DNA from: Metallibacterium scheffleri
GTDB taxonomy: Bacteria; Pseudomonadota; Gammaproteobacteria; Xanthomonadales; Rhodanobacteraceae
NCBI RefSeq assembly: GCF_002077135.1
Contig: NZ_LDOS01000002.1
Coordinates: forward strand, 248,001 to 312,000
Direction of reading: 5' to 3'
DNA: 64,000 bases
Numbering within the stretch: position 1 is the stretch's first letter; each line of letters begins with the position of its first letter. A program made the position numbers and the translations under genes. This document shows, one piece after another, positions 38,678 through 64,000 of the stretch. The notes beneath the pieces were generated by a model. The model saw only the letters and a program-made list of their open reading frames with translations, had not been told where the DNA came from and searched no databases.

Positions 38678-39964
38678 TCAGCCCGGACGACCATCGCGCC
38701 GCGGCGTCAGATAAATCCACGCCGCACGCAGCGCCCACGGCAGAAACGCAGCCACCCAGGCGGCGGCGGTCAGTGTGTAGGCCAGCGCGCCGTAGCCCGC
38801 CAGCGAGTCGATCACGCGCGCGATCGCCACCGCCTGCAGCGCGAAGAAGGTGAACCACGGAATCGCGCCCATGCGCAGCGGTCGACCGGAATGGCCATGT
38901 GTCACGCGCGTCACCATCGCCACCAGCATCGAGCCGAAGAAGCCCACGGTCAGCGCGTGCAATGCGGCCATGTCCCAGGCGCCATAGTTGCCTTCACCGT
39001 ACATGCCGCCCACCGCGAACAGCGCGAAGCCCAGCGGCAGCCAGGCAAAGGCCATGTAGAGGACGCTCAGCAGTCCCGGTCGGCGCGCCTTCCAGGGTTG
39101 CCAGGCGATCCAGTGCCCGAGAAACAACAGCGCCAGCAGGGCATCGCTCAGCGCACGCAGGCGCGGCTGATCCAGCGCGCCCAACAGCAGATGGGCCAGC
39201 AGCAGCAGCCATGCCGCGGGCAGCGACCACGCGGGCCGTACCACGCGATAACCCGCGATCACGCTGCTGGAGAAGAACGGCAGCATGCGATGGGTGACGG
39301 TGAAGAACACTGGCATCAGGAAGGCGAAGGTGCCGATACGGATCGCCGCGATCGCCAGCGCGGGCGGTGCGCCCAGCAGAAAGGCCAGGAACAGCGCCAG
39401 GCCGAGCGCCCCCAGGGTCAGCGCGGCGAGGATCGACCACGCCCAGTGGTCGCGCGAGCGCGCCGTGCGCAGCACGCCGAGCAGGCGCGTGATGCCATAC
39501 AGCCAGCCTGCAAGCAGCAGCGCGAAACCGGCGAGCAGCAGCGGACGCAGGTCCAGCAGCCCGATCACAGCCAGCACGTAGCCGCCGAACACGCCAATGA
39601 ATACCGGCACGTAGGCGCCACGGCGCAGTTCCGGCTGACCGCTCCAGCGTGGAAACACCGTCAGCGTGAAGCCGAAGATGAAAGGCCCGAGCATGCCGTA
39701 CTGCGCCAGCATCGCGTGCGCCCAGATCGTCGGGATCGGCGCCTGCGGCCAGTGCGCCCAGCTCCAGGTTCCGGCGGCCAGTGCCAGTGTCCACCACAGC
39801 ATGCTCAGCAGCACCGCCGTGGCGCCGGCAAAGAACATCATGCGATGCGGCGCGGCGGCCAGTATCTGCGCCATGGATGGCGAGATGCCGCGCGGGTTCG
39901 CTCGCCCGTGTTCGAGGCTTGCGGCGATCGGTCGTGGCTTGCGCCCGGCTTCGGGTCGATTCAT
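38678..39964 (-). CDS. nnrS: NnrS family membrane protein
   Basis: A 428-residue protein with about 12 membrane helices. It carries NnrS landmarks: MAQILAAAPHRMMFFAGATAVL, WAHAMLAQYGMLGPFIFGFTLTVFPRW, FFTVTHRMLPFFSS and HALTVGFFGSMLVAMVTRVTHGHSGRPL. NnrS binds haem and copper and protects iron pools from nitrosative stress in denitrifiers and pathogens. It follows nsrR by 57 nt, so it should be NsrR-controlled. Confidence 0.93.
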   Translation of the reverse strand: MNRPEAGRKPRPIAASLEHGRANPRGISPSMAQILAAAPHRMMFFAGATAVLLSMLWWTLALAAGTWSWAHWPQAPIPTIWAHAMLAQYGMLGPFIFGFTLTVFPRWSGQPELRRGAYVPVFIGVFGGYVLAVIGLLDLRPLLLAGFALLLAGWLYGITRLLGVLRTARSRDHWAWSILAALTLGALGLALFLAFLLGAPPALAIAAIRIGTFAFLMPVFFTVTHRMLPFFSSSVIAGYRVVRPAWSLPAAWLLLLAHLLLGALDQPRLRALSDALLALLFLGHWIAWQPWKARRPGLLSVLYMAFAWLPLGFALFAVGGMYGEGNYGAWDMAALHALTVGFFGSMLVAMVTRVTHGHSGRPLRMGAIPWFTFFALQAVAIARVIDSLAGYGALAYTLTAAAWVAAFLPWALRAAWIYLTPRRDGRPG

Positions 39965-49894: not shown

Positions 49895-50877
49895 ATCAGT
49901 CCGATCCCGTCCCCGCGCCACGCGATGGCAGCAAATATGTCACCGCCGAGGGCACCCGTGCGGTCAAGGGCGGATTGCGCCCGCATGCGCGCAGCAGCGT
50001 GCCCGACGTCGATCGCAAGCCGCCATGGTTGCGCATCGCGCTGCCCAGCGGCGCGGGCTACGACAAGGTACGTGGCATCGTTCACGGCCACGGCCTGCAC
50101 ACGGTGTGCGCCGAGTCGAAGTGCCCCAATATCGCCGAGTGTTGGGGTCGCGGCACCGCGACCCTGATGCTGATGGGCGCGGTCTGCACCCGCGCCTGCA
50201 GATTCTGTTCCGTGAGTACCGGCAACCCGCACGGCTGGCTGGATGCCATGGAACCGCCGCGTGTGGCCGAGGCCGTTGCGCTGATGGGACTGAAATACGT
50301 GGTGCTGACTTCGGTCGATCGCGACGATCTGGCCGATGGCGGCGCGGCGCATTACGCGGCCTGCATCCGCGCGATCCATGCGCGCACGCCGGCGGTCGCG
50401 GTGGAGGCGCTGACGCCCGACTTTGCCGGCGACCTCGCCGCGGTGGCGAACGTGCTGGATGCTGGGCTGGTCACCTACGCGCAGAACATCGAAACCGTCG
50501 TGCGCCTGACCCGGCAGGTGCGCGATCCGCGCGCCGGCTACGCGCAAACGCTGCGTGTGCTCGAGTTCGCCAAGCGGCACGCGCCCGACACGCTGACCAA
50601 GTCCAGCCTGATGCTGGGGTTGGGCGAAACCGATGTCGAAATCGAGCAGACCCTCGATGACTTGCGCGCCGCGCAGGTCGCGATTGTCACCCTGGGGCAA
50701 TACCTGCGTCCGTCGCCAAACCACCTGCCGGTGGCGCGCTTCGTGGCGCCCGAAGAATTCCACCACTATCGCGACCTAGCGCTGGCCAAAGGCTTTGTCG
50801 AAGCCGTCGCCGGACCACAGGTACGCTCGAGCTATCGCGCCGAGCGCGTGCTGGAGCACAACAATGTGGGTCTGTAA
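49891..50877 (+). CDS. lipA: Lipoyl synthase
   Basis: A 328-residue radical SAM enzyme with both clusters: C73-x4-C78-x5-C84 (auxiliary) and C99-x3-C103-x2-C106 (radical SAM), and the C-terminal RSSYRAE serine ligand motif. It inserts two sulfurs into octanoyl-lysine on carrier proteins. The usual partner lipB is absent, and the gene lies within a putatively NO-controlled run with a ferredoxin and a DUF59 protein. A GcvH-like lipoyl acceptor is 2.4 kb downstream. It may be a second, dedicated LipA. Confidence 0.93.
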
Positions 50878-50943
50878 GTCGAAGAAGCCGTCCGGGTTCC
50901 GACGTTGCCACGCGCGACACGCCTGCCGCGCAGGAGATCCATC

Positions 50944-51165
50944 ATGTCGCCGATCGATCAAACCTCACACCCGCGCCATCCCGCGATCCAGCAGGCACAT
51001 GGGATGCATCCGGCGCCCGCAGTGGCGACACCGCCGCGTGCAGTGAAGGGCGCGCGGAATGTCCGCGAGCGCCTGCTTGATGACACACTGGCGGATAGTT
51101 TCCCGGCCAGCGATCCACCGTCGTGGACGCTTGGCCGACGCGCTTCAGCGCGGCGGTCGCCCTGA
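50944..51165 (+). CDS. Small protein with a DSFPASDPPSW motif
   Basis: A 73-residue protein. The C-terminal part RERLLDDTLADSFPASDPPSWTLG is a motif I know from many small uncharacterised proteobacterial proteins; the rest is disordered, His/Pro-rich. AGGAGATCC precedes the ATG. It stands 66 nt after lipA and 31 nt before the AhpD-like gene. Function unknown. Confidence 0.7.
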   Translation: MSPIDQTSHPRHPAIQQAHGMHPAPAVATPPRAVKGARNVRERLLDDTLADSFPASDPPSWTLGRRASARRSP

Positions 51166-51196
51166 TCGATTCCCGTATTTTTCGAAGGAGAGCATC

Positions 51197-51541
51197 ATGG
51201 AACACTCAATCTACCCGCAAGCCAGCGCGGAGCTGGCACGCAAGCGCCGCGAGCTGGCACCAGCCACGCTGGATGCCTTCAAGGCCTTCAGCGCCCAGGT
51301 TTTTGCCGACGGCGCATTGCCGGGCGTGACCAAGCAATTGATCGCGGTCGCGGTGGCGCACGTCACGCAGTGCCCTTATTGCATCCGTGGCCACACCGAG
51401 GCCGCGCTCGAGCACGGCGCCAGCGAGCAGGAAATCATGGAGGCCATCTGGGTCGCCGCGGAGATGCGCGCGGGCGGGGCCTATGCGCACTCGGCGCTGG
51501 CCCTAGACGCCATGCAACAGGCGCATGCGGCGTCACGCTGA
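51197..51541 (+). CDS. Carboxymuconolactone decarboxylase/AhpD-like protein
   Basis: A 114-residue all-helical protein with the redox CxxC motif in TQCPYCIRGHTEAAL, typical of the CMD/AhpD family, whose members act as peroxidase reductants or hydroperoxidases. AAGGAG lies 7 nt before the ATG. Next to a CysK-like gene and a second AhpD-like gene (52572), so a thiol-based redox role is likely; the exact reaction is unknown. Confidence 0.85.
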   Translation: MEHSIYPQASAELARKRRELAPATLDAFKAFSAQVFADGALPGVTKQLIAVAVAHVTQCPYCIRGHTEAALEHGASEQEIMEAIWVAAEMRAGGAYAHSALALDAMQQAHAASR

Positions 51542-51559
51542 TGCCCGGAGAAAACACCC

Positions 51560-52510
51560 GTGAATACACGCTTTGCAGGCGTCTCCGCCAGCATCCTCGA
51601 TGCGATCGGCGACACGCCGTTGCTCGAGATCGAGGGTATCTACGCCAAGCTCGAATTCCTCAATCCCTCCGGCTCGATCAAGGCGCGCATCGCCAAATAC
51701 ATGATCGTGCGCGCCGAACGCGAGGGTCTGCTCAAGCCCGGTGGCACCATCGTCGAGGCCACCAGCGGCAACACCGGCAATGCCCTGGCGATGGTCGCCG
51801 CGGTCAAGGGCTACCGCATGCTGGTGGTGATGCCGGAAGGCCTGTCCAGCGAGCGCGTGGCGATCTCGCGCGCCTATGGCGCCGAGGTGCTGTTTTGCGG
51901 GCGCTTCCACGTCAACGATGCGCTGGCCAAGGCGCGGGAGCTGGGCCGGCAGCCGGGTCATTTCTGCCCGCGTCAGTTTGATTCGGAATGGAATGTCGAA
52001 GAGAACCGCCTGGTGTTGGGCCCCGAGATCCTGGCGCAACTGCCGGCTGGCCGCGTGCCGGACGCGCTGGTGGCCGGCGTCGGCACCGGTGGCACCCTGA
52101 TCGGCGTCGGCCAGGCATTTCGTGCGATCAATCCCGCAGTGCGCCTGTTCGCCATGGAACCCTCGGAATCGTGCACGCTGTTGTGCGGCGAAATCGCCCT
52201 GCACCAGATCGAAGGCATCTCGGATGGCTTCGTACCGGGTATCTTCCAGCGACATGCCAGTCTGGTCGACGAGGTGCTCAGCGTCTCCAGCGGCGAGGCC
52301 ATCGAATCGATGCGTCATCTCGCGCGCCGCCATGGCCTGTTCTGCGGCCCCAGCTCGGGCGCACACCTGCTGGCCGCGCGCCGCGTGCGCGAACGCCATC
52401 CCGAGTTGCGCACCGTGGTCACGCTGTTCTGCGACGAGGGCGAGAAGTACTTGCAGGAACACTTCATGCGCGGCGACAGCGTCACCGTCAACGCCGGACA
52501 CTTCGCGTGA
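51560..52510 (+). CDS. CysK-like PLP-dependent enzyme (cysteine synthase family)
   Basis: A 316-residue fold-type II PLP enzyme with the Schiff-base Lys41 in NPSGSIKARIA, phosphate loop TSGNTGNA, and GVGTGGTLIGVG. It fits cysteine synthase or cystathionine beta-synthase relatives. It starts with GTG after GGAG and is 18 nt from the AhpD-like gene. Which sulfur nucleophile it uses cannot be told; the linkage to lipoyl and redox genes suggests a sulfur-supply role. Confidence 0.87.
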   Translation: MNTRFAGVSASILDAIGDTPLLEIEGIYAKLEFLNPSGSIKARIAKYMIVRAEREGLLKPGGTIVEATSGNTGNALAMVAAVKGYRMLVVMPEGLSSERVAISRAYGAEVLFCGRFHVNDALAKARELGRQPGHFCPRQFDSEWNVEENRLVLGPEILAQLPAGRVPDALVAGVGTGGTLIGVGQAFRAINPAVRLFAMEPSESCTLLCGEIALHQIEGISDGFVPGIFQRHASLVDEVLSVSSGEAIESMRHLARRHGLFCGPSSGAHLLAARRVRERHPELRTVVTLFCDEGEKYLQEHFMRGDSVTVNAGHFA

Positions 52511-52571
52511 GCCCGCCGCGTGCCGAGCAGGAGCGTTGCGTTGCAGCGATATTGTTGCCCAGGAGGCGTTC

Positions 52572-53033
52572 GTGAATACCCGTATCGACTATCGCAAAGC
52601 TTCGCCCGATGCCTACCAGGCCATGCGGGGCCTGGAAGCTGCCGTACACCGCGCGCGGCTGGAGCATGCGCTGCTTGAATTGGTGAAGATGCGCGTCTCG
52701 CAGATCAATGGCTGTGCCTACTGTCTGGACATGCACAGCAAGGATGCCCGCGCCGCCGGTGAAACCGAACAGCGCTTGTACCTGTTGCCGGCGTGGCGCG
52801 AGGCGCCGCTTTATTCAGCGCGTGAACGGGCGGCCCTGGCATGGGCCGAGGCAGTGACGCAGGTTTCGATGAACGAGCTATCCGACACGCTGTACGCCGA
52901 TGTGCGGGAGCATTTCAATGAGAAGGAGATGGTCGATCTGACCTTGGCCATCATCGCCATCAACGGCTGGAACCGCCTGGCGATTGCATTTCGTGCGGAT
53001 GTGGGAGGTCATGTCGCCCAGCCGGTCGGGTAG
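52572..53033 (+). CDS. Carboxymuconolactone decarboxylase/AhpD-like protein (second)
   Basis: A 153-residue helical protein with the CxxC motif in INGCAYCLDMHSKDA, characteristic of the AhpD-like alkylhydroperoxidase family, and the C-terminal IAINGWNRLAIAFR. AGGAGG precedes the GTG start. It is the last gene of the long rightward run. Like its neighbour it probably detoxifies peroxides or reactive species; it is not closely similar to the protein at 51197. Confidence 0.87.
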   Translation: MNTRIDYRKASPDAYQAMRGLEAAVHRARLEHALLELVKMRVSQINGCAYCLDMHSKDARAAGETEQRLYLLPAWREAPLYSARERAALAWAEAVTQVSMNELSDTLYADVREHFNEKEMVDLTLAIIAINGWNRLAIAFRADVGGHVAQPVG

Positions 53034-53114
53034 CACTGTCCAGCAAGACACACGCCCCCAGCGGTCAAGGAACGTTGCAATATCGCCCGCCACCACCGTG
53101 ATGGCGACCTACGG

Positions 53115-53225
53115 ATGCCACTCGGCAACAGTGCATCAATCTATCTAGAGCGAGAGCTTGAGAGACTGGTCGCATCAGCGGCAGAGAGCATCAAGATCGA
53201 ATTGATTGCCGCTGATCGAGTTTGA
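53115..53225 (+). CDS. Possible 36-residue ORF or gene remnant
   Basis: A short AT-richer stretch reads MPLGNSASIYLERELERLV followed by an amphipathic ELIAADRV end, unlike the GC-rich surroundings in codon use. No ribosome binding site is obvious and the translation matches nothing I know. It may be the tail of a lost gene. It occupies the 238-nt gap between the AhpD-like gene and the GcvH-like gene. Confidence 0.2.
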   Translation: MPLGNSASIYLERELERLVASAAESIKIELIAADRV

Positions 53226-53271
53226 ATCCAGGCCGGTATGGGTGCAGTCGAGCACAGCATGCGGGCGACCC

Positions 53272-53718
53272 TCAATCCGAGCAGCGCATGCATTGCACGT
53301 CATAGCGTTGGATCCAGGCTTCGAGCGCGACAACGGCCTGCGCACCGGTGGTGACATGGTCCAGCGCATGCGCCGCGTCATCAGGCTTGATGCGCGCGAT
53401 CCATGCATCGCCGTAGGGATCGATATTGATCAGATGCGGCTTTTCCAGCAGCGCTTCGTTGCGCGCCACGATCACCCCGGCGCAAGGGCTCGGCACTCCG
53501 CCCACCCACTTGCTGCTTTCCAGCGTGGCGACATGGCGCCCGGCATCCACGTGGACGTCCAGTTTCTTGATGCGCGCATAGTGCAGGCGGCCCGCGATGG
53601 CCTGGGCAGGATCGGTGACCCCGAGGGTGAGGGTGCCATCGTGTTCAGGACGCACCCAGACATAGTCGAGGTCGTAAAACAGGTTCGCAGGTATTTCGCA
53701 GCCATGAAATTCGTTCAT
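53272..53718 (-). CDS. GcvH-like lipoyl-domain protein
   Basis: A 148-residue H-protein relative with the lipoyl Lys70 in TLESSKWVGGVPSP instead of [25 protein letters not shown]-like LINIDPYGDAWI, and a C-terminal extension ending CMRCSD. It is too divergent from gcvH at 302 to be a spare glycine cleavage subunit. GcvH-like lipoate-binding proteins act in other pathways, for example LbpA in sulfur oxidation. With lipA nearby, a lipoyl-dependent role tied to denitrification is possible. The ATG at 53718 is the first start that gives the N-terminal fold. Confidence 0.82.
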   Translation of the reverse strand: MNEFHGCEIPANLFYDLDYVWVRPEHDGTLTLGVTDPAQAIAGRLHYARIKKLDVHVDAGRHVATLESSKWVGGVPSPCAGVIVARNEALLEKPHLINIDPYGDAWIARIKPDDAAHALDHVTTGAQAVVALEAWIQRYDVQCMRCSD

Positions 53719-53806
53719 ATCGATTGCTCCGCACTACAACACATTGCTCACGATGGTGCGCGTCAATATCCGACATCCATCAGCTTGCGCACCGATCTGT
53801 GGCGAC

Positions 53807-54250
53807 CTATTGCAAGCTCAGGAGAAGTTCGTTCGCAGCGCGGCCTTGATCCGGCATGATCGCGGCGAGATGGGGATAAAGCTCGGATTCTTCCTTGCTG
53901 TCATGTTGCTTGAGCAGGGCGCGTACCGTTCTCAGCAATGCAGCGAATTCTTCATCGTCGTGCGCAGCGATGGCTTCAGCCATCTCCTGGATGAACACGC
54001 GCAGATCCTGGTGCCCCTTGCGCAATATCGCGGTCAGCGCAGGCTCGGCATTGCCCGGTTGCGTCTCAAAAGCCGGAAACAGCAGCGTCTCTTCCACCAC
54101 CATGTGGCCGTCCACGAGGCCATGGCGGAATCGTTGCAATAGATCCGCGGCTTCACGCCAGTGACCCTCGTGCACCGCCTTGGCACCAGTCTCCAGCAGC
54201 ACGTCCAGGCGCTCATGATCATGGCGCATGATCTGTTCTATGCTTTCCAC
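53807..54250 (-). CDS. Hemerythrin domain protein
   Basis: A 147-residue four-helix protein with the hemerythrin iron ligands H12, H49, E53, H80, H116, E120 and H127 (HDHERLD, HMVVEET, HQDLR, HDSKEESELYPH). Such proteins bind a di-iron site; relatives include the NO-response DnrN/YtfE/RIC repair proteins, though the N-terminal domain of those is absent here. GTG start with GGAGTATTCC upstream. Divergent from the thioredoxin-like gene with 100 nt between. Confidence 0.88.
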   Translation of the reverse strand: MESIEQIMRHDHERLDVLLETGAKAVHEGHWREAADLLQRFRHGLVDGHMVVEETLLFPAFETQPGNAEPALTAILRKGHQDLRVFIQEMAEAIAAHDDEEFAALLRTVRALLKQHDSKEESELYPHLAAIMPDQGRAANELLLSLQ

Positions 54251-54350
54251 GGAATACTCCTTGGCTGGTCGGGTGGGTGAAAGGTTGGGTGGCGGCGCGA
54301 GCAGTCGGGCCAGCAGTGGTGCGGATGAACTTGACCGTCGCGCGGGAGCG

Positions 54351-54599
54351 GTGAAAGTGAAAGTACAACTTCTGGTATCCAAGTGGTGTCCTACTTGCCC
54401 GCAAGCGGAAAAGATCTGGACCGAAGCCGCACAGCGGGTGCCCATGGAGTTCGAAATCCTGGATGTCGCGGAACGCAAAGGCCGTGAAGTGGCGAGCCGA
54501 CTGCGCATCAGGACCGTCCCTGCGGTGGTCATCGATGACGTCCTCAAGATGGTAGGCGCACAACCGCTTGCGGATGTACTGAAAGTGCTGGGCGTCTGA
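54351..54599 (+). CDS. Small thioredoxin/glutaredoxin-like protein
   Basis: An 82-residue thioredoxin-fold protein with the CPTC active site in LLVSKWCPTCPQAEKIW and the cis-Pro in RTVPAVVIDD. Probably a thiol reductant or disulfide exchange partner. GTG at 54351 and GTG at 54357 are both possible, GGAG favouring the second. Divergent from hemerythrin. Confidence 0.8.
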   Translation: MKVKVQLLVSKWCPTCPQAEKIWTEAAQRVPMEFEILDVAERKGREVASRLRIRTVPAVVIDDVLKMVGAQPLADVLKVLGV

Positions 54600-54674: not shown

Positions 54675-55265
54675 TCAGCGGGTGGCCCGCTCCTCGCGCA
54701 CGATGGCCGCGACGAAGGCCGGATCGGCGCGACCGTTGGCCGGATCGGTCGCGATGATGCGTCCCGCGCGATCCAGCAGCGCGACGACCACGTTGTGCTG
54801 GAAGCCGCCGCCCGGCAACGGGCGCCAGCTCACGCCCAGTACGCCGCCGAGCATGCCGATGTCACCGCTGAGCGCACGACTGAGCTGAAACTCCGGCGCG
54901 CTGACGTGGTGTTCTGCAGCGGTTTTCTTGAGTGCCGCGAGATCATCATGCGCCGGATCGAATGTGACCAGCAGCACCGGGATCGGCTGGCCGCCTGCGT
55001 TCACGACCTGATCTTCGACCTGCTTCAGGGTCTCGATTTCCACGGGGCAAGCCATCTGGCACGAGGCATAGAACATTCCCAGCAGACGCGGCTTGCCGGC
55101 GAGACTGGCGAAGGTGAAGGTGCGCCCGTCCTGGTTCACCAGCGTCAGCGGTGGAATGCGATAAACCGAGGTCGCCGGCAATGACGCTGGCGCGGATGCC
55201 GCAGCGGTAACCAGGGTGCAGGTGCCAAGCAAAGCACCACACAGTAGGACGAACATGTTTCTCAT
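54675..55265 (-). CDS. sco: SCO1/SenC family copper chaperone
   Basis: A 196-residue protein with a signal peptide (about 24 residues) and the SCO copper site C69-x3-C73 (ASCQMACP) plus the distal His in GFQHNVVVAL. SCO proteins deliver copper to CuA or related sites in the periplasm. Its ATG overlaps the nirV-like stop, and nirK is upstream, so it likely loads copper into NirK. A close relative at the window's right end is in the second nirK-nirV-sco module. Confidence 0.92.
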   Translation of the reverse strand: MRNMFVLLCGALLGTCTLVTAAASAPASLPATSVYRIPPLTLVNQDGRTFTFASLAGKPRLLGMFYASCQMACPVEIETLKQVEDQVVNAGGQPIPVLLVTFDPAHDDLAALKKTAAEHHVSAPEFQLSRALSGDIGMLGGVLGVSWRPLPGGGFQHNVVVALLDRAGRIIATDPANGRADPAFVAAIVREERATR

Positions 55266-56065
55266 GGGGTATCTCCAGGTTTGCGAACACAGCGAAAACC
55301 CACGAACGGCGACGAGTCCGCGGGAGCGAGCATGGACAGCGCGGCCACGCGTTCGGCCAGCGCGTAGTCGGATGGATCGCGGAATGCCAGCGCGGCGCCA
55401 CCGCACAAGCGCAGGACCGAACCGGAGCCGGCACTGCCGACATCGCCGTTGACTTCGGGAAACATGGCGCCATAGTCGCTCACCCATTCCCAGATCAGCC
55501 GGTTGAGATCGCGCAGGCCGTAAACGTTGGCCGGGCGCTGGCCGATCAAGCCGGGGCGTTGCCCCGTCGCGCGCATGAGCGCGGCCAGGATGGCGTTGCG
55601 GCGGGTCATGTCCGCGCGCGCGTCACGACTGCTGCTGCTGGCTGCGGCGGCATATTCCCACTGATACCAACTGGGCAGTTCGGCATGCAGGCTGTCGCAG
55701 TAGGCGCGCGCGGCGAACCAGCTCACGCCGGTGACCGGGTGACGCGCGGCTTGCGCATCACCCGGGTCGGCGGGCGTCAGCCAGCCGGCGAGGTAGTTGG
55801 GTCCGGCAAACAGCGGTGCAATGTGGCCGCGCTGCCACTCGGGGTGTTGGCGCACGAAGGCGGCGAACTGTGCCTCGGTAACGGGCTCGTCCATCATCGC
55901 GAAGGGTGCGATCCGTACGGTCACTGCCTGCGTACCATCGAGCAGGCTGCTGAGCAACGGGCCGCCGGGCACGATCACGAAGCGCGGAGCCGCGGCATCC
56001 GCCGGCGCAGGCCGCGGCAGCAGCGCAGCCAGCACCATCAGCAATCCTGTGAACGTGCGCAACAT
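55262..56065 (-). CDS. nirV: NirV-like formylglycine-generating-enzyme-family protein
   Basis: A 267-residue exported protein (signal peptide ending near PAPADA) of the SUMF1/FGE-sulfatase family: PVTEAQFAAFVRQHPEW, VTGVSWFAARAYCDSL, LPSWYQWEYAAA, DLNRLIWEWVSDY and the terminal GFRCVR. NirV proteins of this family sit beside nirK in several denitrifiers; their role is not established. It overlaps sco by 4 nt and follows nirK by 51 nt. A paralogue is at 63011. Confidence 0.87.
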   Translation of the reverse strand: MLRTFTGLLMVLAALLPRPAPADAAAPRFVIVPGGPLLSSLLDGTQAVTVRIAPFAMMDEPVTEAQFAAFVRQHPEWQRGHIAPLFAGPNYLAGWLTPADPGDAQAARHPVTGVSWFAARAYCDSLHAELPSWYQWEYAAAASSSSRDARADMTRRNAILAALMRATGQRPGLIGQRPANVYGLRDLNRLIWEWVSDYGAMFPEVNGDVGSAGSGSVLRLCGGAALAFRDPSDYALAERVAALSMLAPADSSPFVGFRCVRKPGDTP

Positions 56066-56116
56066 GATCGCCGGCTCGGTGTGCGCACGGGGTGGCCGCG
56101 CGCAGTGGCCATGCGC

Positions 56117-57214
56117 TCAGTGTGTGCTCGATGCCGCAGCCGGCATGGCGCCAGCGGGTGGAAACGGCCTGTTCCACAGCGCGCGGTAGAGCGTCGGTTG
56201 CTCGGGTCCGGAGACCACCAGTTGGCCCAGCGCGCCCTTGTTGAACATGCGCACGGCGGCGTGGTCGACCAGCATGAACGTGCCGGGCACGACCAGCCTG
56301 GTGTCGGCGATCACCGCGCCACCGGGCGGTACCGAGATGGTCTGCACATTGTGGTCTTCGTTGGAGCCGCCCCACGGCCACACGGTGTTCCAGATGCCGC
56401 CGATCATGTGGAAGCTGGAGGTGAGATTGGGTCCGCCGTTGGCGAAGAAGAAACGCACGGTCTGGCCTTCCTCGGCATGCAGGGCGTGGTCGCCGGTGAG
56501 CGAACCGACGGCGCCGTTGAACACCACGTAGGTGGGCTGCTCGTCCAGCAGCTTGGTCATGTCCAGCGCTTGCAGGCCAGGCTGCATGTAGGCGCCTTGG
56601 GTGTAGAACTCGCCCTGCATCACGTAGAACTCCTTGTCGACCTTGGGCAATCCGTCGGCGGGCTCGACCATGATCGCGCCATACATGCCGTTGGCGATGT
56701 GCACCGCAGCCGGCGCCATGGCGCAGTGATAGACAAAGAACCCGGCGTGCAGCGCCTTGAACTCGAAGGCGCCCTCGTGGCCCGGAATCACGATCGAATT
56801 GGCCGCGCCGCCGCCGGTGCCCATTACCGCGTGCAGGTCGATGTTGTGCGGCATGTGATCGCTGTGCGCGTTCTTCAGGCGGATCTCGACGGTGTCGCCC
56901 ACGCGCACACGGATCATCGGCCCGGGCACGGTGCCGTTGAAGGTGTAGAAGTCGTACTTCACGCCATCAGCCAGCGTGCCGACCACTTCCCTGGCTTCCA
57001 GGTTGACGATCACTTTCGCCGGGTAATGGCGCGTGATCGGTGCTGGCACCTCGGGAGGCGGCAGCAATTTCTCGACGATGGGCTTGCCTTCGGGCGCGCC
57101 GCACAGGGCGGGCGTGCAGGTCCAGCCTGCCGGTAACGGCGAGGCATGGGCCGTGCTGGCGAGCGCGGCACAGCAAAGTGCCAGCGTGATGGCGCTTGCG
57201 AGGATGCGTTTCAT
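56117..57214 (-). CDS. nirK: Copper nitrite reductase NirK (two-domain)
   Basis: A 365-residue periplasmic enzyme with a signal peptide (ending STAHA, about 24). Type 1 copper ligands are H123, C164, H172 and M177 (HNIDLH, YHCAMAPAAVHIANGM); type 2 ligands H128 and H163, with the third His in FMLVDHAAV; the catalytic Asp126 and the His in SSFHMIG are present. It reduces nitrite to NO. An FNR-type box is centred 67 nt upstream. The gene heads nirK-nirV-sco. Confidence 0.95.
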   Translation of the reverse strand: MKRILASAITLALCCAALASTAHASPLPAGWTCTPALCGAPEGKPIVEKLLPPPEVPAPITRHYPAKVIVNLEAREVVGTLADGVKYDFYTFNGTVPGPMIRVRVGDTVEIRLKNAHSDHMPHNIDLHAVMGTGGGAANSIVIPGHEGAFEFKALHAGFFVYHCAMAPAAVHIANGMYGAIMVEPADGLPKVDKEFYVMQGEFYTQGAYMQPGLQALDMTKLLDEQPTYVVFNGAVGSLTGDHALHAEEGQTVRFFFANGGPNLTSSFHMIGGIWNTVWPWGGSNEDHNVQTISVPPGGAVIADTRLVVPGTFMLVDHAAVRMFNKGALGQLVVSGPEQPTLYRALWNRPFPPAGAMPAAASSTH

Positions 57215-57274
57215 ACAGTGCTCCGTGGGTTGGATCTCACGCTTGTGAGTTTGATCGGAGCCTTCGCGCGGCCG

Positions 57275-57288
57275 CTGATCTGGATCAG
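57275..57288. promoter_or_regulatory. FNR/DNR-type box upstream of nirK
   Basis: CTGATCTGGATCAG matches the FNR consensus TTGAT-N4-ATCAA at all but the outermost base on each side and is a near-perfect palindrome. Its centre is about 67 nt before the nirK start at 57214. The same layout occurs before norB and the second nirK. Confidence 0.72.
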
Positions 57289-57432
57289 GCGCCGCCGCGG
57301 CGCGCTGTCGCAGTGATGGCGCGTAGATCAGCAGTGAGAGATGACAACCCAGCGCATCCGGGCGCCGGCGCAGCGGTTTGCACGGGCGGTGGTGACGCGG
57401 CAGATGGGCTCCGCCTGCGCTGCTGCAACCGC

Positions 57433-58089
57433 TCAGCCAGGTGAAGCTGGTGATGGGGATGCGATCAGTGGCGGTCTGCTGATTGTTGCACTGGGTCGCG
57501 CCGCCATGCGGCGGAACCATGGCCCGATGCGCGGCAGCGTGGTGTCGAAGGGCTGTTGCACGGCGTTGCCGAAATCCAGCCACACGTACAACCAGATGTC
57601 GGCGGCGCTGAAACGTTCGCCGCACAGCCAGGGGCCGTCTGCCATCAGACCATCCAGCCAGGCGATGCGGTCCTGCGCAACACGCTTCAGTCCGGCGGCG
57701 GCTTCGGGTGCCACCGGAATGCGGTTCCGGAACCGCGCCAGGCCCTCGGCATAGTGATAGGCGTTGTGGATGAACTCGGTGATGTTGAGCTCGACACGCC
57801 GCCACCACTGCCGGGTTTCGGCGCGCTCTGCTGGATTGCGGCCGATCAGCGCCGGCCACGGGTGCAGCTCCTCGATGTACTCGGCGATGGCCACGGCTTC
57901 GGCCAGCACGCGGCCATCATCGAGTCGCAGTGCCGGGGTTTGGCCAGCCGGGTTGAGTGTCAGGAATGGGGGTGCGCGGTTCTCGCCAGCGAAGACATCG
58001 ACGTGTGCTGCGGGCAATTGCAGCCCTTTCTCGATCAGGAACATGCGCAAGCAGCGCGGGGCGGGGCTGTCGGCGTCGTAGAGCAGCAT
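57433..58089 (-). CDS. Glutathione S-transferase-like protein
   Basis: A 218-residue protein with a thioredoxin-fold N-domain (MLLYDADSPAPRCLRMFLIEKG, LNPAGQTPALRLDDGRVLAEAVAIAEYIEE) and a helical C-domain (SAADIWLYVWLDFGNAV). It lacks a clear catalytic Ser or Cys of the N-terminal type, so the reaction is unknown. It lies between norB and nirK on the same strand, separated from norB by a strong terminator, so it probably has its own promoter. Confidence 0.8.
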   Translation of the reverse strand: MLLYDADSPAPRCLRMFLIEKGLQLPAAHVDVFAGENRAPPFLTLNPAGQTPALRLDDGRVLAEAVAIAEYIEELHPWPALIGRNPAERAETRQWWRRVELNITEFIHNAYHYAEGLARFRNRIPVAPEAAAGLKRVAQDRIAWLDGLMADGPWLCGERFSAADIWLYVWLDFGNAVQQPFDTTLPRIGPWFRRMAARPSATISRPPLIASPSPASPG

Positions 58090-58100
58090 GGTGGCTCCGG

Positions 58101-58133
58101 AAAAGGGCGAGGGCCGTGAGGGCGGCCCTCGCC
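58101..58133 (-). terminator. Rho-independent terminator after norB
   Basis: An 11-bp perfect stem pairs 58106-58116 (GGCGAGGGCCG) with 58123-58133 (CGGCCCTCGCC), 6-nt loop. Read leftward from norB, it is followed by CTTTTCC. It lies between the norB stop (58152) and the GST start (58089) and should separate the two genes. Confidence 0.75.
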
Positions 58134-58151
58134 AGGAGGCATCGCGATCAA

Positions 58152-60479
58152 TCAGCGATCCCGACCCACCAGTGCGATTGCGGCGGTCGCCATGCCGGCA
58201 CGTGCGAACTGGCGTTGCATCCACAATTTGCGCATGAAGTCCCAGGCCATGAGCACGGCGCCGGCGGCGAACACGATGTCGCCGGGCATGCGCATCCACT
58301 GCCAGAACAGCGTGGTGTCGTAGAACTTCATGCTGCGTGCGTAGGCGTAGCCGTGGGTGTACACCGCCTCGAGTTGCGGCCAGCCGATCGGGTAGAAGTT
58401 CAGCACGATCCACAGCACCATGCCGATGTTGTACAGCCAGAACGCCCACACGCCGAGGCGGTCGCTCCATGCGCGATCACCGTTCAAGTAGCGCAACGCC
58501 ATGTACACCAGGCCGATGGCCAGCAGGCCGAAGGCGCCGAACATGGCGGTGTGCGCGTGGTTGAGGGTGAGGAAGGTACCGTGCTCGTAGTAGTTGACCA
58601 GCGGCGCGTTCAGCGTGCCGCCGCCGAACACGCCGGCGCCGACGAAGTTCCAGAACGCCGAACCGAGGATGTACAGGTAGGCCAGACGGTACGGGAAGTC
58701 CTTCTGTTCGGCGATATGGCGGCGCTGGTCGATGGCCTCCATCACCAGCAGGAACAGCGGCAGCACTTCGAGGAACGAGAACATGCTGCCCACGCCGATC
58801 CACAGGCTGGGTTCGCCCACCCAGTACATGTGATGGCCGGTGCCGAGGATGCCGCTGAGCAGGATCAGGATCCACTCGAACAGCACGGCGCGCTCGACCA
58901 GTTGGCGCGAGACCAGCCCCAGGCTCATCAGGAAGTAGCCGGTGACCGCGGCGGTGAAGGTCTCGAACGCCCACTCCACCCACAGGTGCACCACCCACCA
59001 GCGCCAGAAATCGGTGATGGTGAAGGACGGGTTGGGCGAGGCCAGCGGGATCATGCCGAACACGTAGATCACCGCCACCGCCAGCGTGCTGTACCACAGC
59101 AAGTGCTCGATGCGGAACAGGCTGTAGAACGATCCACCCTGCCGGAACAGCGCCTTCAGCGTGGGCCAGAAGGCGCGCAGCAGCACCAGGCTCCACACCG
59201 CCAGGCCGACGAAGAACAGGATCTGCCAGAAGCGGCCCAGTTCCAGGTAGGACAGGCCCTGGTTGCCGAACCAGAACCAGTGCTTGCCGATCAGCCCCAT
59301 GATGCCGAGGTAGTCGCCGATCAGCGCACCGGCGACGATCACCACGAGCACCCAGAAGATCAGGTTGACCAGATGGCGCTGCCCGGCCGGTTCGCCACGC
59401 CCGATCAGCGGCGCCAGGAACAACCCGGCACCGATCCAGCTCACGCCGATCCACACGATCGCCGCCTGCAAATGCACGCTGCGCAAGAAGTCGAATGGCA
59501 GCCAGCGGTCGACGTCGATGCCGTAGAAGCTGGCACGCTCGCTGTAGTAGTGCGCCATGATCGTGCCGGCCAGGATCTGCACCAGCAGCACCCCGGCCAC
59601 CACCAGGAAATACTTCCACAGCGCCTTCTGGCTGGGCGTGGGTTCGGCAAAGCCCTGCAATGTCGGCTCGTAGGTCTCGCCGGGTGACTTCGGCTCGATC
59701 CACAGTCGGAAGATCACCAGCACCGCGCCGATGGCGAAGAACACCAGGGTGAACGAGGCCCAGGTCCAGATGAAAGTGGCCTTGGTGGGGCTGTTGCCGA
59801 CCAGCGGCTCGGCCGGCCAGTTCACCGTCCACGAGTAGTCCTTGCCGGGCCGCAGCGCCACCGTGGTCAGCGACGAATACAGCAGGAAATCGGCGGTATG
59901 CGCGGCGCTGGTGTCATCCAGCGCGTGAGCGCGCGTGTAGCCTTTGGCGAAGTTGTCGGTCAGCAGTGATTGCGCGATGCGCGTGCGCAGCGTGGCGATG
60001 GCGTCGGCCACCGCCTGCGGCAGCACCACCACCGGCCGGCTCAGGTCGATGGCCTTCAGCTCGACCCGCATGCTGCGCGTGATACCGGACTGCTGGTCGG
60101 CGCCGAGCGCCGCGTAGGGCTTGCCGTAGCGTTCCTGCGCCAGGTTCTCCTGCACCTGCCGGCCCAGTTGCACCAGGTATTCGGCGGTGTAGTCCTCGCC
60201 GAAGTACGAGCCCATGCCATACAGGCTGCCGTAGTCCATCAGGTCGGCCTTCTGGAAGCCCGACTTGCCGGCGACGATGCTGTCGTAGCTCATCACCGTG
60301 ACGCCGCTCGCGGTGACCATCTTCTGCGGCAGCGGCGCGGCCTGCTCGTAAGTTTCCACGGTGGCCACCACCATCGCCGCCCAGCAGACGACGGTGACGA
60401 TGACCATGATCCAGATCAGCACCTTGCTGGTGCGGTCCTGCGGTCCGGCTTGTGCTGCCGGTAGTGCATTGGCGGACAT
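58152..60479 (-). CDS. norZ: Quinol-dependent nitric oxide reductase (qNOR)
   Basis: A 775-residue protein of the qNOR type. It has one N-terminal helix (about 14-36), a periplasmic domain (about 40-210) and about 12 further helices, including LLVQILAGTIMAHYYSERAS, FLRSVHLQAAIVWIGVSWIGAG, and GTGHHMYWVGEP near residue 548 with the haem-iron/FeB His pair. It reduces NO to nitrous oxide using quinol, with no separate NorC. AGGAG lies 7 nt before the ATG; an FNR-type box is centred 69 nt upstream. Confidence 0.94.
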   Translation of the reverse strand: MSANALPAAQAGPQDRTSKVLIWIMVIVTVVCWAAMVVATVETYEQAAPLPQKMVTASGVTVMSYDSIVAGKSGFQKADLMDYGSLYGMGSYFGEDYTAEYLVQLGRQVQENLAQERYGKPYAALGADQQSGITRSMRVELKAIDLSRPVVVLPQAVADAIATLRTRIAQSLLTDNFAKGYTRAHALDDTSAAHTADFLLYSSLTTVALRPGKDYSWTVNWPAEPLVGNSPTKATFIWTWASFTLVFFAIGAVLVIFRLWIEPKSPGETYEPTLQGFAEPTPSQKALWKYFLVVAGVLLVQILAGTIMAHYYSERASFYGIDVDRWLPFDFLRSVHLQAAIVWIGVSWIGAGLFLAPLIGRGEPAGQRHLVNLIFWVLVVIVAGALIGDYLGIMGLIGKHWFWFGNQGLSYLELGRFWQILFFVGLAVWSLVLLRAFWPTLKALFRQGGSFYSLFRIEHLLWYSTLAVAVIYVFGMIPLASPNPSFTITDFWRWWVVHLWVEWAFETFTAAVTGYFLMSLGLVSRQLVERAVLFEWILILLSGILGTGHHMYWVGEPSLWIGVGSMFSFLEVLPLFLLVMEAIDQRRHIAEQKDFPYRLAYLYILGSAFWNFVGAGVFGGGTLNAPLVNYYEHGTFLTLNHAHTAMFGAFGLLAIGLVYMALRYLNGDRAWSDRLGVWAFWLYNIGMVLWIVLNFYPIGWPQLEAVYTHGYAYARSMKFYDTTLFWQWMRMPGDIVFAAGAVLMAWDFMRKLWMQRQFARAGMATAAIALVGRDR

Positions 60480-60541
60480 GACGCGCTCCTGATTCGCGTG
60501 TAAGGCGAATGGAATGCTAGGCGGCATGTCGAGGCGAGTTC

Positions 60542-60555
60542 CTGATCTGGATCAG
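60542..60555. promoter_or_regulatory. FNR/DNR-type box upstream of norZ
   Basis: CTGATCTGGATCAG, identical to the box before nirK, is centred about 69 nt before the norZ start at 60479 and 25 nt after the stop of the FNR-type gene on the same strand. Activation of norZ at low oxygen is expected. Confidence 0.72.
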
Positions 60556-60579
60556 GAATACCGCGGCACAACGCCGCAG

Positions 60580-61335
60580 TCAGCGTTCCAGCACGTTGCG
60601 CGCCAGCGCATTCAGCCGTGCGGCATCGACGATCTCCACATCGCGCCCGTCGATGGCGATCAGCCCGAGATCGCGAAACCGGGTCAGCATGCGGCTGACG
60701 GTTTCCGCGGCCAGGCGCAGGTAGTCCGCGATTTCACTGCGCGACATGGCCAGATGCAGACGCCGCGCCGGAAAGCCCTGCGTGGCGTAGCGTTCGGCCA
60801 GATCGATGAGAAATGCCGCCACGCGCTCGTCGGCCGCATGATCGCCCGCCAGGCGCGAGGTCATGCCCAGCTCCTTGGACAGCAGGCGGAACAACTGCTG
60901 CTGCAGGCCGGGCATTTTCGTGGCCAGCGCGCTGATCGCACTGAACGAGAAGCGGCAGAAATAGGTCGGCTCCAGTGCCACCGCATCGCAGGGATAGTGC
61001 TCGGGATAAATGGCATTGAGTCCGACCACCTCGCCGGGAATGTAAAAGCCCAGCACCTGCTCGTTGCCCTCGGCATCGATCGCGACGGTCTTCACCGTGC
61101 CGGCGCGCACCGCGTAGATCGCGCGAAACGGATCGTGGCGGCGGAACACGGGTTCGCCCACGCGGTATGGCCCCACGTGTTCGACCAGAACATGCAGATC
61201 GCGCAGCGCGGCCTTGTCGTAGCCGGCGCGCGTACAGGCGCCGGAAAACGCGCAGGTGCTGCAAAAACGCACTTCATCGCCATCGTCGGCGATGGGGCTG
61301 TCGCGATCAGTGAGGCGGTGTGAGTGCAGCGTCAT
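60580..61335 (-). CDS. fnr: FNR-type Crp/Fnr family regulator
   Basis: A 251-residue regulator with four candidate [4Fe-4S] cysteines: C25, C28, C34 (CSTCAFSGAC) and C127 (TYFCRF), matching FNR positions. The HTH has MSRSEIADYLRLAAETVSRMLTRFRDLGLI, with the E-x2-S-R that reads TTGAT. It therefore looks oxygen-sensing rather than haem-based DNR. The ATG at 61335 gives the FNR length. It lies between the two nirK modules, next to boxes for both norZ and the second nirK. Confidence 0.93.
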   Translation of the reverse strand: MTLHSHRLTDRDSPIADDGDEVRFCSTCAFSGACTRAGYDKAALRDLHVLVEHVGPYRVGEPVFRRHDPFRAIYAVRAGTVKTVAIDAEGNEQVLGFYIPGEVVGLNAIYPEHYPCDAVALEPTYFCRFSFSAISALATKMPGLQQQLFRLLSKELGMTSRLAGDHAADERVAAFLIDLAERYATQGFPARRLHLAMSRSEIADYLRLAAETVSRMLTRFRDLGLIAIDGRDVEIVDAARLNALARNVLER

Positions 61336-61423
61336 GGCAGCCTGGCTTCGCGATTGCAGCGGGTGCCAGTCTAGCAAGCGCGGTGCTGGATCCAGGCCCG
61401 AACCGCGGCGGATTGCCACGGAG

Positions 61424-61437
61424 TTGATCTGGGTCAA
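61424..61437. promoter_or_regulatory. FNR/DNR-type box upstream of the nirK-cytochrome c gene
   Basis: TTGATCTGGGTCAA matches TTGAT-N4-ATCAA with one mismatch. Its centre is about 69 nt before the ATG at 61500, and about 95 nt before the divergent fnr start, so it could also regulate fnr. Confidence 0.75.
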
Positions 61438-61499
61438 GAGCTCCCCCGGCGCAAGTTATTACGATCTTCTCACGCTACTTTCGCGATCAGGAGAGGATC

Positions 61500-62948
61500 A
61501 TGCGGCAGCCATTGCTCTCAACCATCGTTCTTGCCCTCGGCCTCGTCCTTCTTGGCGCGCATGCGGCACCCGCGGGCGCCGCGTCCGTCAAAGATCCCGC
61601 CGATCTCGGCCCGCCGCGCGGCGCGCCGATCGAGGAGGCCATGCTCGCGCCGCCCGCGGTGCCGCCGCCGATCCATCGCGACTATCCGGCGCGGGTGATC
61701 GTGCGCCTGGAAACCCGCGAGGTCGTCAAGGAGATCGCCGACGGCGTGCGCTACGACTTCTGGACCTTCAACGGCACCGTGCCGGGGCCGATGATCCGCG
61801 TGCGCCAGGGCGACACCGTCGAGCTGCACCTGAAGAACGCGGCGGATTCGCACATGGCGCACAACATCGACCTGCACGCGGTGATGGGTCCGGGCGGCGG
61901 CGCGGCGGTCAGCATGACGCCGCCGGGGCACGAGAGCGTGTTCACCTTCAAGGCCATGCGCGCGGGCCTGTACATCTATCACTGCGCCACGCCGCCGGTA
62001 CCGATGCACATCGCCAACGGCATGTACGGCTTGATCCTGGTCGAGCCGCCGCAGGGGCTGCCGAAGGCGGATCGCGAGTACTACGTGGTGCAGGGCGACT
62101 TCTACACGACGGGTGCCTATCACGCGCCCGGCCTGCAGACGTTCGACATGCAGAAGCTGCTGCTGGAGCAGCCGACTTATGTGTTGTTCAACGGTCGCGA
62201 GGGTTCGCTGACCGGCGCCAACGCGCTGACCGCGAAGGTGGGCGACACGGTGCGCCTGTTCGTCGGTGACGGTGGCCCCAACCTGGTGTCGAGCTTCCAC
62301 GTCATCGGCCAGATCTTCGACAACGTCAACGTCGAGGGCGGCACGCTGATCAACCACAACGTGCAGACCACGCTGATCCCGGCCGGCGGCGCGGTCACGG
62401 TCGAGATGAAGACGCTGGTGCCGGGCACCTTCCTGCTGGTCGACCACTCGATCACGCGCGCGTTCATGCAGGGCGCGCTGGGCCAGTTGGTCGTCACGGG
62501 TCCGGCCGCGCCGGCGATCTACGACAAGGTCTCCAGCGGCCCGGCTGCGCCGTCGCCGGCCGCCACGCCGATGGCTCATGCGGCCGCTCCCGCCGCGGCG
62601 GTCAACGACGCCATGGCCGACGGCAAGCGCGTGTTCGGACAGATCTGCGCCGCTTGCCATCAGGGCAACGGCATGGGCCTGCCGGGTGCGTTCCCGCCGC
62701 TGGCGATGTCGGATTACCTCAACGCTAATCCGAAGGGTGCCATCGGCATCGTGCTCAATGGGCTCAGCGGCAAGATCACCGTCAACAACACCGGCTACGA
62801 GTCGGTGATGCCGGCCTTCGGCACGCAGCTCAGCGATGACGAGATCGCGCACGTGCTGACCTACGTGCTGAACAACTTCAACAACAAGGGCGGCACCATC
62901 GCGCCCGCCGAGGTCAAGGCCGTGCGTGCGGGCGACAAGCCGCGGTGA
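61500..62948 (+). CDS. nirK2: NirK nitrite reductase with C-terminal cytochrome c domain
   Basis: A 482-residue three-domain enzyme with a signal peptide (ending APAGAA). The copper region has type 1 ligands H121, C162, H170 and M175, type 2 ligands H126 and H161 and the His in LLVDHSI, and Asp124. After an Ala/Pro linker (about 345-370) comes a cytochrome c domain with C383-AAC-H387 and a Met in SVMPAF. Electrons can pass within the molecule, as in Ralstonia-type three-domain NirK. AGGAGAGGATC precedes the ATG. nirV-like and sco genes follow. Confidence 0.94.
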
Positions 62949-63010
62949 GGACCGGGCCGGTGGCGCCACAGCAGCGGCGCCACCGGCCCATGCGGAATCC
63001 GGGAATGATC

Positions 63011-63787
63011 ATGCGCACCCGTATTGGCCTGCTGCTGGCCTTGCTGGCGACGGCGCCCGCCATCGCTGCGGCCGACTACGTCGCCATCCCCGGCGGCGTT
63101 TTCGTCAGCGCGCTGGCCCTCGATGGCGCCGCGGCGCGCATCATCATCAAGCCGTTCGCGATGCGCGTCGAGCCGGTGACCAACGCCGAGTTCCTGGACT
63201 TCGTGCGCATGCATCCCGAGTGGCAGCGCGGCCAGGTGTCGCCATTGTTTGCCGGGCCGCAGTATCTGGCTGCATGGCAAGGTCCGCTGACACCCGGCCC
63301 CGAGGTGCGGCCCGAGCAGCCGGTCACCAGCGTCAGTTGGTTTGCCGCGCGCGCCTTTTGCGCCAGCGAGCAGGCGCGGCTGCCGAGCTGGTACGAGTGG
63401 GAGTTCGTCGCCGCCGCCGACGTCACGCGCCGCGATGCGCGCCAGAATCCGGCGCGCAATCAGGACATCCTCGACGCGATCCAGGCGGCCACCGGGCACC
63501 GGCCCGGTCGCATCGGCCAGCATCCCGCCGACGTCTGGGGCGTGCGCGATCTCAACCGCCTGCTGTGGGAATGGACCGGTGACTACGCCGCGATGTTTCC
63601 CAACGCCGATGCGCGCGTCCCCGGCGCCGGCCCCTCGCTGGCGCTGTGCGGCGGCTCGGCGCTGGCCTTCACCGACAAGAACCAGTTCGCGCTGATGATG
63701 CGCGTCGCCGCCCTGACCGCACTCAAACCCGCCGACGCCGCCCCACGCGTCGGCTTCCGCTGTGTTCGTGACCTGCCTGGAGAATGA
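63011..63787 (+). CDS. nirV2: NirV-like formylglycine-generating-enzyme-family protein (second)
   Basis: A 258-residue exported protein, a paralogue of the one at 55262: PVTNAEFLDFVRMHPEW, VTSVSWFAARAFC, LPSWYEWEFVAAAD, DLNRLLWEWTGDY and GFRCVRDL. The ATG at 63011 follows GGGAA; an ATG two codons upstream is possible. It follows nirK2 by 62 nt and precedes sco2 by 2 nt. Role as for its paralogue: not established. Confidence 0.87.
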   Translation: MRTRIGLLLALLATAPAIAAADYVAIPGGVFVSALALDGAAARIIIKPFAMRVEPVTNAEFLDFVRMHPEWQRGQVSPLFAGPQYLAAWQGPLTPGPEVRPEQPVTSVSWFAARAFCASEQARLPSWYEWEFVAAADVTRRDARQNPARNQDILDAIQAATGHRPGRIGQHPADVWGVRDLNRLLWEWTGDYAAMFPNADARVPGAGPSLALCGGSALAFTDKNQFALMMRVAALTALKPADAAPRVGFRCVRDLPGE

Positions 63788-63789
63788 CC

Positions 63790-64000
63790 ATGCGTATCCC
63801 CCGTCTGCTGCTGCGCTTCGCCAGTCTTGCGCTGTTCGCGCCGCTGACGCTCACGGCTTCATCCGGCGCCGCGCCGCTGCCCGACAACTCGGTGTACCGG
63901 ATCCCGGCGTTGACGCTGCGCGATCAGCAGGGCGATGTTTTCAGCTTCGCCTCGCTGCGTGGCGAACCGCGTCTGGTGAGCATGTTCTACGGCTCCTGCA
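63790..64000 (+). CDS. sco2: SCO1/SenC family copper chaperone, 5' part
   Basis: Only the first 70 codons are in the window. The start MRIPRLLLRFASLALFAPL is a signal peptide; SVYRIPALTLRDQQGDVFSF and MFYGSC lead into the CxxxC copper site and match the SCO at 54675 closely. It is the third gene of the second nirK-nirV-sco module. The rest lies beyond the window. Confidence 0.9.
   Translation, partial: MRIPRLLLRFASLALFAPLTLTASSGAAPLPDNSVYRIPALTLRDQQGDVFSFASLRGEPRLVSMFYGSC

Follow-up and report, generated by a model that had tools for sequence, protein, structure and literature searches.

Two unequal nirK-nirV-sco modules around norZ and fnr in Metallibacterium scheffleri, one encoding a tethered nitrite reductase without the linker gate tyrosine

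Why would one bacterial locus carry two complete gene sets for copper nitrite reductase, transcribed away from each other? The question is raised by a stretch of 64,000 nucleotides of the Metallibacterium scheffleri genome (contig NZ_LDOS01000002.1, positions 248,001 to 312,000; hereafter the window), at whose right end two nirK-nirV-sco modules flank norZ, which encodes a nitric oxide (NO) reductase, and fnr, which encodes a Crp/Fnr regulator. An earlier note on this DNA had described the arrangement as a compact island for the conversion of nitrite to nitrous oxide (N2O), and had suggested that either NirK is served by a NirV and a SCO of its own. Our favoured reading, to which we assign a probability of about two in three, is that the island is switched on under anaerobic conditions and takes nitrite to N2O by means of two nitrite reductases that are not redundant, and that it combines an old left lineage with exchangeable accessory proteins.

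Under this reading, low oxygen would lead the FNR-type regulator to switch on norZ and both nirK modules. The SCO protein of each module would deliver periplasmic copper, and NirV, with the fold of a formylglycine-generating enzyme (FGE), would help assembly without being obligatory. NirK2, from the right module, would take its electrons through its own cytochrome c and should be able to bind nitrite while the haem is still oxidised. NirK1, from the left module, which either lost or never had a haem, would receive electrons from a separate donor, and NorZ would convert the resulting NO to N2O. The right module would represent a lineage common to other genera of the family, and the left one an old sister lineage that some members of one genus carry in the norZ-nnrS interval.

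The whole island could be read on a 20-kb stretch (L005) that spans the right end of the window and includes sco2 beyond position 64000. Gene order and strands are as the earlier note claimed: sco1-nirV1-nirK1 lies on the minus strand at 54675-57214 and nirK2-nirV2-sco2 on the plus strand at 61500-64377, with the end of sco2 outside the window and a glutathione S-transferase gene (GST), norZ and fnr in between. The gene names given in the note are borne out by domain scans. The copies form inverted repeats in the DNA, with arms of 404, 246, 170 and 56 nt that are 71-91% complementary. Their strong divergence is confirmed in the proteins, with identities of 62% for NirK (343 aligned positions), 58% for NirV (239) and 54% for SCO (172). 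The note was also right that a single NirK bears a cytochrome c domain: NirK1 consists of two cupredoxin domains and nothing further, and NirK2 has the same core followed by a C-terminal cytochrome c (Pfam PF13442/PF00034).

The foremost new point, as far as sequence can establish it, concerns the linker that joins the two parts of NirK2. In the excerpt of PMC6038957, Tyr323 in the linker between the core and the cytochrome of the Ralstonia NirK is described as blocking the substrate channel. An excerpt of a 2026 paper (PMC13324648) names two characterised tethered NirK, from Ralstonia and Pseudoalteromonas, and states that the gate tyrosine is conserved in all cytochrome c-extended copper nitrite reductases (CuNiRs). 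NirK2 resembles the Ralstonia pickettii enzyme (RpNiR; PDB 2yqb, 3ziy) closely, aligning with it over the full length including the cytochrome c (605 bits) and keeping all copper, catalytic and haem ligands, among them the CxxCH motif and the Met ligand of the cytochrome. The linker of NirK2, however, is shorter and contains no Tyr, Phe or Trp, and the residue aligned to Tyr323 is Ala.

This difference is a property of a whole clade. Among the haem-bearing NirK rows of the alignment, 43 of 74 have Tyr at the gate column; the count is 0 of 28 in the clade of NirK2 and 43 of 46 in the remainder, where the rows without it are G138, G139 and the distant row L168. Linkers are shorter in this clade (30-41 residues; mostly 48-49 outside it). 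Tyrosine is absent from 26 of its 28 linkers; L103 and L104 have one, five places past the aligned column. The 28 gateless rows are related and stand for few events, not 28. Four clade members had been counted as gated by a loose pattern that accepted the Phe in "FAS/FAG"; by the aligned column, none of them has Tyr. NirK2 can thus be called a tethered NirK, but appears not to be assignable to the gated RpNiR type, and the absence of the linker tyrosine predicts that its clade consists of ungated tethered nitrite reductases. Because the gate tyrosine is absent, NirK2 is predicted to bind nitrite before its haem has been reduced. Two points weigh against this prediction: six clade members have Phe at the gate site or one place before it, and another residue could fill the channel in a protein whose gate has been judged from the alignment.

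No description of a gateless tethered NirK was found in the limited literature collection searched, which was covered by titles and the beginnings of abstracts. It is possible, if somewhat short of an even bet, that NirK2 represents a whole undescribed class of gateless tethered NirK in which tethering and gating are separable, with NirK1 as its haem-free sister. If this holds, a single genome contains both a gateless tethered and an untethered NirK, a natural experiment on the purpose of the tether. The gate model, which is built on the two characterised enzymes and on this one tyrosine, holds that nitrite is excluded until the haem is reduced, and the gateless tethered clade would offer a natural variant for testing it.

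The unusual linker could also be explained if the two-domain form of NirK1 were ancestral and the NirK2 clade had gained its cytochrome c in a separate fusion. The position of NirK1 as sister of the gateless clade, the two-domain structure of outgroup rows such as those of Chloroflexota and the shorter clade linkers would fit such a history. Against it, the haem domains of NirK2 and of the Ralstonia enzyme can be aligned over their whole length, CxxCH is present in all 74 haem rows and the Met ligand in 73, and a single fusion with later loss avoids repeated capture of the same cytochrome. A separate fusion is accordingly rated as rather unlikely.

The favoured reading also requires that both enzymes work as nitrite reductases. 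Both exceed the curated TIGR02376 cut-off of 296.3 bits, and alignment to the Ralstonia NirK shows that the type 1 ligands (H, C, H, M), the three type 2 histidines and the catalytic Asp and His, nine residues in total, are all kept in both copies of the window's own genome (G000) and of its relatives G134 and G130. The ratio of nonsynonymous to synonymous divergence (dN/dS) stayed under 1 in all gene pairs used; the line labelled G130 SCO2 was set aside, as it compares with the sco1-type gene of that genome. NirK1 resembles the AniA kind of two-domain CuNiR (Neisseria, PDB 1kbv; 361.9 bits) and Weeksellaceae NirK in having two cupredoxin domains, but it scores higher against the core of the Ralstonia enzyme (393.5 bits) and its nearest relatives by phylogeny are tethered proteobacterial NirK. 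The idea that NirK1 is a pseudogene remnant that lost its haem domain was rejected: the frame is intact in all three genomes, and the nirK1-nirV1 gap is below 100 bp in each (51 bp in the window).

A further possibility is that NirK1 has acquired a different function and has ceased to be a main nitrite reductase. Six positions with at least 90% conservation among 127 other rows carry a shared substitution in all three NirK1; four of the six fall beyond the catalytic His240, at Ralstonia positions 246-264. The NirK1 branch is also long. All three also carry a Cys-x5-Cys after the signal peptide (window 57098-57118, minus strand), which NirK2 lacks at that place. A change of function nevertheless seems very improbable, given the nine retained copper and catalytic residues, dN/dS values of 0.08 and 0.16 for NirK1, and a perfect FNR-type site upstream of the gene in all three genomes. 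Elsewhere, a second haem-free NirK (L120 from position 7857, followed by nirV and sco) falls inside the gateless clade, which suggests that the cytochrome domain was lost there independently.

The origin of the left module was addressed by phylogeny, after 13 duplicate loci had been dropped. The first NirK tree held 110 of 131 rows, omitting 19 Bacteroidota loci and fragments below 250 aa; the second held 98 rows with more proteobacterial sequences, keeping 15 outgroup loci and leaving out L217 and L234. The three NirK1 proteins group together with full support in the NirK trees, and the 98-row tree places them as sister to the NirK2 clade (support 99/95). Supported clades in the NirV trees and in the first SCO tree unite the right copies with other genera and leave the left copies out. 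Of the 233 family genomes searched, only G000, G130 and G134 carry the NirK1 lineage (89-96% identical; E 1e-100), which makes three of the 13 searched genomes of its genus. A donor was not apparent: scans of 369 genomes of the class (7 matched at E 1e-100) and 398 of the phylum (10 at E 1e-105) returned nothing outside the family above 58% identity.

A competing origin is a local inverted duplication within the genus, after which the left copy would have diverged fast and lost its haem domain. The copies are adjacent and inverted, and NirK1 was seen in this genus alone. When the left and right copies of the genus were forced into one clade, the approximately unbiased (AU) test rejected this history for the 98-row NirK set (p 0.012) and for SCO (p 0.012 and 0.035), and the left genes remain outside the clades that join right copies to other genera. 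Recent local duplication is therefore disfavoured and, overall, unlikely; on the choice between old duplication and separate acquisition that the earlier note had left to phylogeny, the trees speak against a recent event, though not decisively for NirV. Several results weigh on the other side. The AU test gave p 0.055 for the first NirK set and p 0.079 for NirV; the sister position of NirK1 was weak in the 110-row tree (81/34); the NirK1 branch is long (0.55-0.6); and in a 61-row SCO tree, going outward from sco2, the first starred group larger than a two-species pair has 24 rows and already includes sco1. Grouping NirK1 with loci L113-L118 gave p 0.188 in the first NirK set.

Comparison of the locus among relatives suggests how the left module came to its place. 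In G127, norZ is followed after a gap of about 0.7 kb by a homologue of window 38398-39859, which is nnrS (PF05940), and in G132 the contig stops 130 bp into nnrS beside norZ. The norZ-nnrS interval of G130 holds nirK1-nirV1-sco1 together with a gene judged by eye to be porin-like, and the window's genome has about 14 kb extra between sco1 and nnrS. On this layout the norZ-nnrS junction of G127 and G132 is read as an empty site for the left module, and gain of the whole module would be the simplest explanation. Differential loss in the two relatives accounts for the empty site equally well, which tells against a gain, as does the fragmented state of the G130, G136, G127 and G132 assemblies, where assembly error could mimic missing or mosaic genes. 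The norZ-nnrS gap also contains REP-like repeats (about AGCGCAGCGAAGG), with three matches in G127 (L258 3998-4354) and one in G132 (L257 3960); the repeat had no match in the window, L005, L175 or L176. Further along in G130 (L176 535-1458) lies an NsrR-like Rrf2 regulator, at 113.5 bits to the NsrR model against a cut-off of 182.

At synonymous sites, the three genes of the left module have diverged by 0.235-0.295 between G000 and G134; the values are 0.03-0.11 in the three genes of the right module and 0.06 in norZ. This inequality indicates that the modules have different recent histories as well, perhaps from recombination of the right half. Along the DNA of the same pair (L005 1-15500 vs L175), identity is 96-99% over norZ, nirK2, sco2 and most of a pyruvate kinase gene, 91-93% over fnr and nirV2, 87-96% over the left module and 71-89% over much of the flanks, a patchwork suggestive of recombination or local constraint.

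The name NirV rests on position after nirK and on an FGE-type domain; both NirV match the FGE-sulfatase domain PF03781. A formylglycine-generating activity was considered and rejected, as the active-site cysteine pair is absent from NirV1 in a PDB alignment and from the aligned stretch of all 29 NirV examined. Because this pair is missing, a catalytic FGE role is unlikely; another cysteine is invariant in all 29 rows. An AlphaFold2 model of NirV2 (mean pLDDT 83.6) had as its best Foldseek match the human FGE paralogue SUMF2 (PDB 1y4j; E 3.3e-9, TM 0.48, rmsd 9.5). SUMF2 is not known to have the catalytic cysteines; NirV differs from it in carrying its own invariant cysteine. An excerpt of PMC10356946 describes the activity of NirV as unknown; we infer a role in assembly.

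In its strict form, the pairing proposed earlier would mean that NirV1 and SCO1 mature NirK1 alone and NirV2 and SCO2 mature NirK2 alone. The layout agrees with this as far as it goes: both modules are complete, the nirV stop and sco start overlap as ATGA in each, and the left genes of all three families lie outside the clades that hold the right ones. Among the 17 family genomes with two NirK (E 1e-100), nine have two NirV, but eight have one; G136, one of the eight, has its contig cut in nirK. G187 and G205 have NirK but no NirV, only weak FGE-domain matches of at most 45 bits. G130 retains both NirK and both NirV but has no sco2: the pyruvate kinase gene begins about 70 bp after the end of nirV2. 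Besides sco1, that genome has three SCO-family matches at other places, two strong and one weaker (contig C49, 50.9 bits); the last is unlikely to be a moved sco2, as no reading frame there matched SCO1 or SCO2 at E 1e-3 (blastp).

Exchange between partners is also visible in the trees. One NirK of G136 (L180) groups with other genera, and its confinement to the genus was rejected (p 5e-5); its NirV and SCO are of the genus type and do not follow the NirK (p 5e-4 and 8e-5). This locus sits on a 13-kb contig of a metagenome-assembled genome, so a chimera is possible. In L101, L103 and L104, NirK stands beside NirK2 of the window and NirV and SCO are distant (p <1e-7). According to an excerpt of PMC4770552, about 61% of the NirK genomes in that study encode NirV, which is described there as not mandatory. 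Strict partnership is thus quite unlikely: the complete modules of the earlier note stand, and an obligate rule does not. On the sequences compared, the accessory genes appear linked to NirK as a module but exchangeable. That nirV and sco accompany nirK, yet can be lost, shared or exchanged, speaks for NirV having a general function and not one tied to a particular partner. In L182 (G179), two SCO pieces follow nirV, either a second sco or a frameshift; SCO pieces of at least 120 aa were kept for the tree.

Evidence for anaerobic control comes from FNR-like sites, of which nine were observed in 20 kb against 0.95 expected. One lies 61 bp upstream of nirK1. Of 63 stretches upstream of nirK in the loci fetched from the family, 37 contain a site with no more than one mismatch, compared with 9.4% of the control windows; the nirK2 site of G130 carries two mismatches. 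The fnr product scores 181 bits against PRK11161, whose cut-off is 228. What tells against the switch is that it is deduced from consensus matches, and the proposed regulation stays provisional to that extent.

The end product is suggested by the remaining genes. NorZ combines the catalytic domain PF00115 (COX1) and, as its N-terminal part, PF22085 (NorB cytochrome c-like) in one chain of 775 aa, with fnr and GST as neighbours and no norC beside it. The window's genome (3.76 Mb in 5 contigs) has no match to the narG or napA models, and none to the clade I nosZ model TIGR04244. That model exceeded its cut-off in eight of the 16 genomes searched, all from outside the window's genus; two genomes of the genus gave weak partial matches. 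Clade II nosZ was searched by PF18764 alone, a model that matched nothing, controls included. These results support a nitrite-to-N2O island as first proposed, and from its gene content the genome looks set to take nitrite to N2O.

The module itself is ordinary; the inverted pair is not. NirK matches at E 1e-40 or better occur in 129 of the 233 family genomes and NirV matches at 1e-20 in 110. Sixty stretches were fetched from relatives, a selection of the family matches, and a pattern scan of genome contigs, limited to the best 80 of 450 relatives, gave 79 named loci. Some of the close named loci bear the labels Rhodanobacter or Lysobacteraceae MAG, and others that of Proteobacteria only. In L005 and L175-L234, after exclusion of six nirK with less than 2.5 kb downstream, nirV and sco follow nirK on the same strand in 48 of 59 cases, nirV alone in one and neither in ten. 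ATGA stands at the stop of 34 of the 52 nirV of the fetched family loci. The order nirK-nirV-sco recurs in Polaromonas and Rhodoferax loci and in three of four Bacteroidota loci (L121-L123; L119 has nirV only).

The linkage of nirK and nirV is already known. An excerpt of PMC10356946 describes nirV directly after nirK as common, and one of PMC4770552 places this order mainly in Proteobacteria and Bacteroidetes. The window modules likewise have nirV immediately 3' of nirK; they differ in having sco as third member and in forming two inverted modules around fnr and norZ. Extra nirK copies are reported in the related Rhodanobacter strain FW510-R12 (PMC8809349, excerpt), and genomes with multiple copies in the cited part of PMC4770552. 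Two nirK in one genome are common to those cases and this one, but here the copies stand in full modules at one locus, belong to different lineages, and one is haem-free. Besides the gateless clade, what is new is the pair of unequal lineages at one locus and the evidence that the accessory genes can be exchanged.

Coordinates are collected in Table 1. Beyond sco2 follow pyruvate kinase and fructose-bisphosphate aldolase genes, both named by eye. The SCO proteins match PF02630 above cut-off, with a CxxxC motif and a His read from the translations. In the synteny comparison, GST was not seen at the locus of G130. No RNA element scored above its gathering score in L005.

Table 1. Features of the island and of nnrS, in window coordinates; start codons of GST, norZ and fnr are our choice.
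Feature	Position	Strand	Description and evidence
nnrS	38678..39964	-	PF05940, 200.5 bits; adjoins norZ in G127 and G132, where the left module is absent
sco1	54675..55265	-	SCO1/SenC copper chaperone, last gene of left module; PF02630, 57.5 bits
nirV1	55262..56065	-	FGE-sulfatase-fold protein without FGE cysteine pair; PF03781, 102.9 bits; PDB and NirV alignments
nirK1	56117..57214	-	365 aa, two-domain copper nitrite reductase, no haem domain; TIGR02376, 333.7 bits
FNR-type site upstream of nirK1	57275..57288	.	perfect match to YTGATNNNNATCAR
GST	57433..58089	-	glutathione S-transferase, downstream of norZ; Pfam GST_N/GST_C
norZ	58152..60479	-	single-chain (predicted quinol-type) NO reductase; PF00115, 189.7 bits; PF22085, 131.5 bits
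FNR-type site upstream of norZ	60542..60555	.	perfect match
fnr	60580..61335	-	Crp/Fnr regulator, CxxCxxxxxC near N terminus; Pfam Crp, HTH_Crp_2, cNMP_binding
FNR-type site between fnr and nirK2	61424..61437	.	one mismatch
nirK2	61500..62948	+	482 aa, three-domain NirK, C-terminal cytochrome c; TIGR02376, 355 bits
nirV2	about 62990..63787	+	FGE-sulfatase-fold protein; PF03781, 88.6 bits
sco2	63784..64377 (63784..64000 in window)	+	SCO1/SenC; PF02630, 54.1 bits on L005:11784-12377

To the left of the island, at window 48008-54599, lies a further cluster of genes. It encodes a DUF2249-TusA protein, an FeS assembly protein, a ferredoxin, a lipoyl synthase-like radical SAM protein, two CMD proteins, a PLP enzyme, a GcvH-like protein, a hemerythrin and a thioredoxin-like protein.

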